DNA from: Meiothermus sp.
GTDB lineage: Bacteria; Deinococcota; Deinococci; Deinococcales; Thermaceae
Assembly: GCF_026004075.1 (NCBI RefSeq)
Contig: NZ_BPIK01000001.1
Span: 1,900,041 to 1,964,040 of the forward strand
Direction of reading: 5' to 3'
DNA length: 64,000 nucleotides
The notes below the pieces were generated by a model that saw only the letters and a list, made by a program, of their open reading frames with translations, searched no databases and was not told the DNA's origin. The translations under genes were made by a program, and so were the position numbers. This document shows, piece by piece, positions 16,133-64,000 of the stretch; the stretch's first letter is position 1; every line of letters starts with the position of its first letter.

Positions 16133-16276
16133 GTCTAGTACACCCCCAAACCTCCAAATTCGCAGCATGAAACCATTAGTTCTAGCTGTATGCCTTATCG
16201 TTGATTTTTCCTCATCCTGAGGTTCTTATGGGAAGCACGAATAGGTTTTCATATGAAATCCTTTTGATTCATTCCC

Positions 16277-16837
16277 CTAACATCCCCCCGGCCACCAGTG
16301 AAATAGGGTGTAGCTCTGGATAAGCGCGGGCTGGGTTTGTAGGTAAGCGCACCGGGCTTCCACCTTGGCCCACAGCTCCTCTTCATCCTGCACCTGCCCA
16401 TTGGCCACGACCGCGTCAATGAGCCCCCAGACTCGTTCTACCGGCTGCAACTCGGGCGAGTAGGGTGGCAGATAACACAGCCCCAGGCCCTTGGCTGGCT
16501 CCACCCGCCCCGAGGTGTGCCAGCCAGCCTGATCCAGCACCACCAGTACCAGCTTGCCCGCCCCCGCCCCCCGTAGCCGGGCAAAGGCCTCCAACACCAA
16601 CTGGAACCCCTCCACCGAGACCGAGGGCAGCAGCCAGTACTCGCTTTCCCCCGTACCCGGTCTTATGAAGGCGTACACATACAGCCAGCGATAGCGGGGC
16701 CGCTCCTGCGCTAGCGGCGTCCTCCCTCGCAAGGCCCATACCCGTCGGCGGATGGGCTTCAGCCCTATTCGGCGCTCATCAAAGCCCCACACCTCCAACT
16801 CCAGTTCAGGAAAGAGCAACCTGAACAGGAAAACCAT
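16277..16837 (-). CDS. IS630-family transposase, C-terminal frame (DDE catalytic part)
   Basis: Open to 186 aa from ATG 16837, which overlaps the stop of the first frame. Catalytic acids are visible: Asp in VWGFDERRIGL, Asp in LVVLDQAGWHTS and Glu in YSPELQPVERVWGLID. It is probably expressed mainly as a fusion with the upstream frame through slippage at the seven-A run rather than from its own ATG. The catalytic residues are intact, so the element may still be active. Confidence 0.88.
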   Translation of the reverse strand: MVFLFRLLFPELELEVWGFDERRIGLKPIRRRVWALRGRTPLAQERPRYRWLYVYAFIRPGTGESEYWLLPSVSVEGFQLVLEAFARLRGAGAGKLVLVVLDQAGWHTSGRVEPAKGLGLCYLPPYSPELQPVERVWGLIDAVVANGQVQDEEELWAKVEARCAYLQTQPALIQSYTLFHWWPGGC

Positions 16838-17349
16838 CAGAAAGAGCTTTTTTTGAAAGCCTCCTGCCGCTTCGCATCCGCCTCCCGGTGGCGCGGCCGG
16901 GGGCGCAGCGGGGCCAGGCCCAGGCGACGCATCCAGTACCAGGCCCGCCGCCCATCCACCGGACGTCCCAGCCTTTCAGCCAGCCACTCCGCAGCGTTGC
17001 GTATGCTCCAAAGCCCGTCCCTGGGATGGGGCTGGAGGAGGGCCTGGCGGAAGCCCTCCTGGAGTTCGGGCGGTACGAGGGGGGCCCGGCCTTTGTTCTC
17101 GTGCCGCAGATTCTTCATGGGCAGGCCCTGATTGTAGCGGTGGATTACCTGACGCACCCAGCGATCGGTATAGCCCAGATTCCTGGCTACCTCGGGGATG
17201 CTCTGACCCCTGGCCAGCAGCCAGAGAGCGTGCCAGCGGGCGCGTTCGGTGTGGTCTTGGGACTCCCGGTAGAGGGCGTGGAGGTTATCCGGATGGTGTC
17301 GCAGTTGGAGTTCCAACCGGGGGCGGCGCTGATGTTGGGCCAGTTGCAT
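16837..17349 (-). CDS. IS630-family transposase, N-terminal frame (HTH part)
   Basis: 170 aa. Helix-turn-helix region SIPEVARNLGYTDRWVRQVIHRYNQG followed by the winged part with RLGRPVDGRRAWYWMRRLGLAP, typical of the DNA-binding half of IS630 transposases. The frame ends EAFKKSSF-stop. A run of seven A (minus strand, 16848-16854) lies just before the stop. A -1 shift there continues as FKKKLFLMVFLF directly into the catalytic frame, giving one protein of about 360 aa, the normal family length. Confidence 0.88.
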   Translation of the reverse strand: MQLAQHQRRPRLELQLRHHPDNLHALYRESQDHTERARWHALWLLARGQSIPEVARNLGYTDRWVRQVIHRYNQGLPMKNLRHENKGRAPLVPPELQEGFRQALLQPHPRDGLWSIRNAAEWLAERLGRPVDGRRAWYWMRRLGLAPLRPRPRHREADAKRQEAFKKSSF

Positions 17350-17526
17350 GGCTCCATTTTAGTGGAAAGAGTCTTGAAGATTTCTTATCAAACAGGAAAA
17401 CGCTATTTGCTGCTACGGGCTAAGGGGCGAAGCCTCTAGCCAAATTATAGGGCCATCTTCTCGGAATCAGAGCGATCGCCATGACCAAGAAGAGAGCACC
17501 GCCCGTAAGCGAACCATCGTGGTCTC

Positions 17527-17663
17527 ATACGCATTCCGGCAGTATCGTTCACTTCTGAAAGCCTAAACGATACTGCCGGAATGCACTTCTACTCCCTTCG
17601 GTCGGCTTAAATCCTTCACCTTTGACTACGCATGGCGGTAAAGAATTCAAGCGGAAACGGTAT
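17527..17663 (+). repeat. Structured 137-bp repeat, copy A
   Basis: Aligns without gaps to 63292-63428. A perfect 19-bp inverted repeat (arms 17531-17549 and 17566-17584) with a 16-nt loop forms the first half. A weaker second stem occupies the second half. It has no open frame of its own. It lies 140 bp from the IS630 end and before the BMP remnant. Within the roughly 380 bp between the IS and that remnant, I see nothing else. Confidence 0.75.
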
Positions 17664-17768
17664 CACAAACCATTGAAGGGACAAGGAGATCGCCTTTACA
17701 GAGCGCAGCGCACCCCGTTTGGTGGGGGCGGACTATCTACATTCAGTACACTGCCTGCTAACCTGGTA

Positions 17769-55615: not shown

Positions 55616-55718
55616 GCGTCCTCGGTCTGACGCGGCGCACCAGCGTGAACCGGGTCAGGGCCGGAAGGCAGCAGCCCTAAGCGCCACGGAGCGGGTGCCG
55701 TCAGGGAGCCGGGGACGC
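55616..55718 (+). ncRNA. ffs: Signal recognition particle RNA (small bacterial type)
   Basis: The apical loop is unmistakable: GGGTCAGGGCCGGAAGGCAG followed by CAGCCC (about 55653-55676), with the GGAA tetraloop and the symmetric and asymmetric internal loops that bind Ffh. The ends pair (GCGTCC-TCGG with CCGGGGACGC), giving about 103 nt. A T tract directly after the 3' end acts as terminator. The remaining 240 bp up to lptF contain two TTCCCGCGGG motifs and the lptF promoter only. Confidence 0.95.
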
Positions 55719-63205: not shown

Positions 63206-63291
63206 CCTAAGACAAAAGACACCAAATAGGCAAGCAAATTTGAACTATTTGAATTTTGCCCGACTGTTTAGGCGCAGGCTCCGAGAGGCTA

Positions 63292-63428
63292 ATACGCATT
63301 TCGGTAGTATCGTTCACTTCGGCAAGTCTAAACGATACTAACGAAGTGCTTTTCTACTCCCTTCGGTCAGCTTGAATCCTTCGCCTTTGACTATGCCCAA
63401 CAGTGAAGGATTCAAGCGGAAACGGTAT
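63292..63428 (+). repeat. Structured 137-bp repeat, copy B
   Basis: Gapless alignment with 17527-17663. First stem arms are 63296-63314 and 63331-63349, with two paired substitutions relative to copy A that keep base pairing. The second stem is perfect over 12 bp (63371-63382 with 63405-63416). Its right end touches the IS5-family element. The 90 bp between the DedA start and this repeat carry no visible feature. Confidence 0.75.
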
Positions 63429-63430
63429 AA

Positions 63431-64000
63431 GAGACTGTCTTAATACTTTCTAGGAGGCCAATCTTCTGACCATAAGCCGAATCATCGCTGTGTGGATGAA
63501 GGTCTCTGAGCTCTCAGGTAGAAGCTCATAGTCCCGGTTCAGCCTCCGATTGAAGCTCAGCCAGGCAAACGTCCGCTCCACCACCCATCTGCGGGGAATC
63601 ACCACAAACCCCCGATGCCCCCGCGTCCTCTTCCGCACTTCCTCCTCCAAGTCCTCCGGAAGAGGCTGGTCTTTAGGCCACCAAATACCCCGGAAGTTGG
63701 CATCCGGCCTGCGCACCACCTCCACCGTCCAGCCCAAGGTGCGCCGAACCCATTCCTCAAACCTGCGCTTGTACCCCCCATCCACAAACAGATGCGACAA
63801 CCGCTTCGACAGCCCCCTGGCCCCCTCCAGCACCTCTCGCCCGCCCTCCGCATCCGTGAGGTGGGCGGGCAGCACCTTGACTCCCAACACCAGCCCTTGT
63901 GTATCCACCAGCAGATGCCGTTTGCGCCCCTTTACCTTCTTGCCCGCGTCATACCCCCTGACCCCCCTTTTCCCGAGGTCTTCACGCTCTGGCTATCCAG
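63431..64000 (-). mobile_element. IS5-family insertion sequence, cut by window end
   Basis: The left end is probably GAGACTGTCTTAATAC at 63431, 20 bp from the transposase stop. The other end lies outside the window, so the inverted repeat could not be confirmed. It contains a DDE transposase of the IS5 superfamily with an internal frame change at A4G6. Confidence 0.75.
63450..64000 (-). CDS. IS5-family transposase, C-terminal part with internal frameshift
   Basis: The catalytic frame reads YDAGKKVKGRKRHLLVDTQGLVLGVKVLPA, then Asp in LFVDGGYKRRFEEW and Glu in VIPRRWVVERTFAWLSFNRRLNRDYE: the second Asp and Glu of the DDE set and the Y-(2)-R-(3)-E-(6)-K-like signature of IS5 transposases. Upstream of about 63967 the protein LDSQSVKTSGKGG continues in another frame; a -1 shift at AAAAGGGGGG (63963-63972) joins them as SGKGGVRGYDAG. 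The 5' part, including the first Asp, is outside the window. Whether the shift is programmed or a mutation cannot be told from one copy. Confidence 0.85.

Follow-up and report, generated by a model that had tools for sequence, protein, structure and literature searches.

A structured repeat occurs twice in the window, i.e., the 64,000-nucleotide stretch of DNA from a hot-spring Meiothermus analyzed here, with compensatory base changes between the two copies. An earlier note on this sequence had considered a small RNA, a small mobile hairpin element and a hairpin recognized by a transposase, and the question was which of these the repeat represents. Both copies were re-read and aligned. As described, they align without a gap, and both reported double changes are present: C17536-G17579 in copy A becomes T63301-A63344 in copy B (element position 9/52), and C17540-G17575 becomes T63305-A63340 (element position 13/48). 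When the copies were lined up with their flanks, the unit was found to be exactly 135 bp, 17528-17662 in copy A and 63293-63427 in copy B, both on the forward strand. The repeat is real, but it is not 137 bp long as had been proposed, since the outermost base on each side belongs to a target-site duplication, which according to the flank alignment is TCA for copy A (17525-17527 and 17663-17665) and TAA for copy B (63290-63292 and 63428-63430).

The unit contains two hairpins joined by a linker, all read on the forward strand. By folding and covariation, the 5' arm of stem 1 in copy A (17531-17549) lies within the left terminal repeat, and the 3' arm (17566-17584) is an inverted internal copy of that repeat. 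The 19-bp stem reported for each copy is perfect in copy A, whereas in copy B (63296-63314 and 63331-63349) it consists of 17 Watson-Crick pairs, one G.U pair and one G.A mismatch, the latter two counted on the 3' arm. The linker (17585-17604 in copy A) carries CTCCCTTCGGTCGG, which is common to the two families distinguished below as type I and type II. In stem 2, the 5' arm of copy A (17605-17620) faces a 3' arm (17637-17652) within the right terminal repeat, which matches IS630-type ends. In copy B (63370-63385 and 63402-63417) the second stem has 13 perfect pairs counted from the base, and not 12 as stated before. Elsewhere in the window, a bacterial small signal recognition particle RNA (Rfam RF00169) at 55619-55718 was the sole Rfam match.

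Alignment of further copies of this type I family showed that the unit runs TACGCATT...CGGTA, bounded by direct repeats of TNA. Perfect 3-bp TNA duplications flank 37 of 41 copies, all four bases being represented at the middle position, and the outer flanks vary between copies; such duplications together with copy-specific flanks represent the signature of transposition. The terminal inverted repeats are short and imperfect (TACGCATTTC / TACCGTTTCC), and no transposase open reading frame is present inside the 135-bp element. In the host genome (3.25 Mb, two contigs), 40 full-length copies at 85-100% identity were scored by a DNA search. The type I copy counts given for the host genome are based on a covariance model built from 41 copies, which yielded 146 matches corresponding to 92 separate loci at a score of at least 50 bits, roughly 70 of them near full length; the remaining matches, which were either weaker or arose from the palindromes read on the opposite strand, were excluded. 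The covariance-model search of Thermaceae genomes that the earlier note had proposed as a check thus returned about 92 loci in the host and many further matches in other Meiothermus genomes. Type I is abundant in five genomes of the genus, the host, G008, G010, G012 and G016, and exact-pattern matches in named genomes were obtained in Meiothermus sp. KatS3mg071 and Meiothermus taiwanensis DSM 14542.

The insertions are mostly intergenic, as 31% of the type I insertions, compared to 85% of random positions for the same loci, fell within open reading frames of at least 150 amino acids. A type I site without the element was identified in G016, with flanks about 85% identical and an imperfect junction, and a type II copy of G008 has a clean empty counterpart site in the host genome. 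All characteristics of a miniature inverted-repeat transposable element (MITE) were accordingly found: a short, non-coding unit in high copy number, target duplications, terminal inverted repeats and empty orthologous sites. We therefore consider the repeat a non-coding MITE; that it is a mobile element is about 95% certain. The earlier suggestion of a small mobile hairpin element is borne out by the TNA duplications, the approximately 90 copies and the element-free orthologous site in another species. In the literature searched for repeats and MITEs of Meiothermus or Thermus, no description of the type I element was found.

Several matches deviated from the standard unit. Derivatives of only 29-66 bp, which retain the ends or one hairpin and in several cases perfect TNA duplications, occur at L092:2254-2319, L093:281-352, L094:220-270 and L209:146-177. 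Matches of the end pattern and of the model near the end of host contig 1 (C1:2483213-2494597) recur with equal spacing at the start of contig 2 (C2:29265-40649), which suggests that the contigs overlap or that at least 11 kb have been duplicated. Three viral contigs matched the linker but were rejected, as no element is present there.

The type I model also led to a second family, type II, of 125 bp, which was found in other Meiothermus genomes and in two sister genera. Its layout is that of type I, with a terminal TAC, hairpin 1, the CTCCCTTCGGTCGG linker, hairpin 2, a terminal GTA and TNA duplications, and its terminal inverted repeats are TACCGGATTC / TACCAGATTC; the stem sequences are unrelated to those of type I. 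A type II model matched in 20 of 41 genomes, the matches covering three genera and one genome having at least 124 of them. As this model also recognized type I copies, with identical borders and E-values of around 1e-7 to 1e-8, both families were treated as related. Together, they appear to form a MITE superfamily that has not been described before and that many Meiothermus genomes carry in tens to more than one hundred copies. In G008 (e.g., contigs C7, C8, C12 and C52), more than 25 type II copies have practically equal scores, which suggests recent amplification; the same genome also carries several copies of an IS630-type element bearing TACCAAATCT ends. At L191-L205, mainly in G023, which belongs to another genus, type II elements are 157-474 bp long and their linker contains nested small hairpin modules; one of these, a palindrome of about 39 bp, is repeated in tandem up to six times. 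Both ends of these elements are retained, and the TNA duplications are mostly intact.

Folded as single-stranded DNA, both window copies were far more stable than any of 200 dinucleotide shuffles (z = -5.7 and -7.1). Among 66 distinct aligned type I sequences, 95.2% of the stem cells were paired, and 43 cells were changed on both sides compared to 18.3 in shuffles (0 of 500 as high); this pairing signal was destroyed when the partners were slid against each other. For type II (15 distinct sequences), 98.9% of the stem cells were paired, seven pairs were doubly changed, and 28 cells were changed on both sides against 9.4 in shuffles (0 of 500). The excess over shuffles in both families supports that the covariation seen in the two window copies is real.

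To separate changes by age, variants were classed as private, i.e., occurring in one copy and mostly arisen after insertion, or as shared, i.e., occurring in four or more copies and inherited through transposition. In 59 distinct copies of the host genome, private variants occurred at similar frequencies in the stems (0.47 and 0.59 per site) and the loops (0.62), whereas shared variants were rare in the stems (0.13 and 0.19) compared to the loops (0.66; Fisher P = 0.008). The linker was also poor in shared variants (0.20 per site). In the full type I set, 38 of 42 private stem changes had left the partner unchanged, so that the pair was broken or turned into a wobble. Thus, shared variants avoid the stems or mostly preserve the pairing while private ones usually break it, and the constraint acts on the moving lineage and not on each resident copy. 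The structure is selected or transmitted, as had been supposed, in the transmitted lineage only, but resident copies lose pairing freely. C.A mismatch states at positions 9/52 and 13/48 are common to 9-10 copies, and movement thus does not strictly depend on perfect pairing. A constraint at the level of the lineage fits a sequence and symmetry requirement of transposition.

These data bear on the idea that the repeat is a conserved small RNA, or an RNA processing or terminator element, whose pairing is kept for the function of a transcript at each locus. The stable folds on both strands, the covariation in type I and type II and a T-rich stretch 3' of stem 1 would agree with such a function. 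However, a constraint limited to the moving lineage speaks against selection for a small RNA at the individual loci, as private mutations hit stems and loops alike and usually break pairs. A strand-specific wobble bias, with C.A on one strand, appeared strong among the first 41 copies and was dropped with the larger set: mismatches were distributed 80 versus 43 between the strands in 66 distinct copies, about 59 versus 42 without two subfamily positions, and 14 versus 17, i.e., without bias, in type II. As the repeat also matched no Rfam family, and neither a terminator nor a promoter was predicted at copy A, we regard a small RNA as very unlikely, and this part of the earlier proposal was given up.

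Long near-perfect palindromes are known substrates for template switching between their arms, and the compensatory changes could therefore be a mutational by-product that arose without selection. This explanation addresses nothing but the covariation, and the repeat could still be a MITE if it held. A few private double changes do exist. However, a matching partner change accompanied only 4 of the 42 private stem changes of type I, and copying alone does not predict that shared variants are depleted from the stems; template switching as the source of the covariation is accordingly rather unlikely. The MITE reading then leads to the question which transposase moves the element.

The ends of type I pointed to the IS630 family. 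After about 15 IS ends had been compared, the right 26 bp of type I were found to agree with an IS630-type terminal repeat at 20 of 26 positions, a match reached by 0 of 20,000 shuffles, and the left 26 bp at 18 of 26 (shuffle P about 1e-4), and none of the other IS ends in these genomes matched both type I ends. The matching elements, of about 0.95-1.08 kb, occur in G022, G023 and other Thermaceae genomes, have ends of the form TACCCTTTCnTGyTGnATCCTTC and encode proteins assigned to the IS630 family by NCBIfam. Canonical IS630 elements duplicate TA (PMC2170065), which was not observed here; the MITE and the ISs show 3-bp TNA duplications, as seen in the matching group, IS-B, IS-C and IS-E. 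IS-B (G013, G016) starts with TACC and ends with GGTA, and its 3-bp duplications are TAA at one site and TTC at two. Further IS630-family elements of Thermaceae with 3-bp TNA (sometimes TTC) duplications were noted at L211, L222, L231, L234, L246, L252, L255, L291 and L292 as well as at 16252-17387 of the window.

The latter is IS-C, an IS630-family element of 1136 bp on the reverse strand with two open reading frames and a TCA duplication. It shares the TNA signature with the MITE, at nearly all sites examined, but its terminal repeats (TATGAAATCC/TAAGAAATCT) are unlike the type I ends. In G012, one IS-C copy is located inside loop 2 of a type I element, where a single TGA target had been duplicated, as revealed by comparison with intact MITEs. 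IS-C with its different terminal repeats was the only IS630-type transposase found in the host genome, and an autonomous element with exact type I ends was found neither there nor in the relatives of the host. An IS630-type element located just inside the left end of a type II element (G023, L262) was rejected as the type II parent, as its own ends differ (TACCCC...); it is instead an insertion into, or a recombinant with, the type II element.

Taken together, type I is probably a non-autonomous element mobilized in trans by an IS630-type transposase. The earlier notion of a hairpin recognized by a transposase likely holds, but with ends that match IS630-type DDE elements and not the Y1/REP-type suggested. 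To our knowledge, Y1 transposition makes no target duplication, and a Y1 enzyme is disfavored because type I duplicates its target. A REPIN moved by a Y1 (RAYT/IS200-type) transposase would resemble type I in several respects, as REPINs are likewise non-autonomous, intergenic and hairpin-forming, with compensatory changes reported (PMC3116915). However, REPINs are linked to RAYT tyrosine transposases (PMC3116915), whereas type I makes perfect 3-bp target duplications and has ends matching those of DDE-type IS630 elements, which renders a REPIN extremely improbable.

Both copies had also been thought to border IS elements. This is correct for copy B, which abuts an element starting at 63431, but copy A is separated by 137 bp from the IS630-type IS-C. 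The element at the right end of copy B, IS-A (63431-64000, reverse strand, extending beyond the window), is a 930-bp member of the IS5 family with perfect 15-bp ends (GAGACTGTCTTAATA) and TNA duplications, and it took the TAA at 63428-63430 as its target. Of the ten IS-A copies found, six are inserted precisely at the TNA to the right of a type I MITE, with both orientations represented (window 63428-64000; C1:466149, 1549393, 1963468, 2180894; C2:527940, 542298). With about 90 MITE sites among an estimated 100,000 or so TNA sites, chance adjacency is negligible. This adjacency and the shared TNA target would suit mobilization of the MITE by an IS5-family transposase such as that of IS-A. However, the IS-A ends are dissimilar to the MITE ends, and since the IS-A copies are nearly identical, the adjacent MITEs diverged and both orientations present, IS-A inserted later, into the right TNA of old MITE copies, which explains the adjacency. 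IS-A was therefore rejected as the parent, and mobilization by such a transposase is improbable. A type II MITE in G008 had inserted at the same spot of a type I element, and the right TNA thus represents a hot spot reused by other mobile elements. A 268-aa IS5-type transposase between two MITE halves (L091) was likewise dismissed as a parent; it belongs to a separate IS inserted in the MITE loop (L091:1574-2556), with about 18 identical copies on both contigs of the host genome and apparent YTAR targets.

Among known systems, RUP of Streptococcus pneumoniae, a 107-bp element with terminal repeats like those of IS630-Spn1 that has been proposed to insert near IS elements (PMC3049150), is similar to type I as a short MITE with about 100 copies, IS630-like terminal repeats and a stable fold. 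When the RUP transcript folds, its two terminal repeats pair with one another (PMC3049150), whereas each terminal repeat of type I pairs mainly with an inverted copy of itself inside the element, so that two hairpins form; type I further differs in its TNA duplication and is unrelated in host and sequence. For the cyanobacterial MITE Nezha, an IS whose terminal repeats resemble those of the MITE has likewise been proposed to act in trans (PMC3049150), the host and the driving IS being different. ISY100 and other IS630/Tc1/mariner elements share the transposase family of the ISs that match the MITE ends, but ISY100 duplicates the 2-bp TA (PMC2170065) and the Thermaceae group the 3-bp TNA. ISs that insert preferentially at repeated palindromic REP sequences are known (PMC1525189), while here the target of an IS5-family element is the TNA that borders a MITE on its right. 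Type I adds a new family to an established class of elements and is not a new RNA.

In the proposed mechanism, an IS630-type DDE transposase would bind the terminal 26 bp or so of the MITE and join them into TNA targets. As the terminal repeats include the 5' arm of stem 1 and the 3' arm of stem 2, each hairpin would consist of a terminal repeat and its adjacent inverted internal copy. In the moving lineage, variation in the stems would be held back and changes would mostly be paired; after insertion, each copy would drift and lose its pairing. The role of the hairpins is one we infer: the simplest cause may be symmetric recognition of paired transposase-binding sites, or a DNA hairpin or cruciform formed during transposition, and an RNA function at the insertion loci would be unnecessary. 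More speculatively, and with a rather low likelihood, transposition by the Thermaceae IS630-type group may need a folded or symmetrically doubled end, i.e., a terminal repeat paired with its inverted internal copy; two MITE families whose stems are unrelated in sequence have both retained the two-hairpin layout.

The results explain a covarying structured repeat without a new RNA and define a set of IS630-family elements with 3-bp TNA duplications. Covariation that is kept by transmission of a mobile lineage and lost in resident copies also calls for caution in covariation-based RNA discovery. If transposition indeed needs a folded or doubled end, a group of DDE transposases with 3-bp TNA targets would recognize the two ends of the element by their DNA structure or as a paired-site synapse, and its end recognition would be unlike that of canonical IS630/Tc1/mariner elements.
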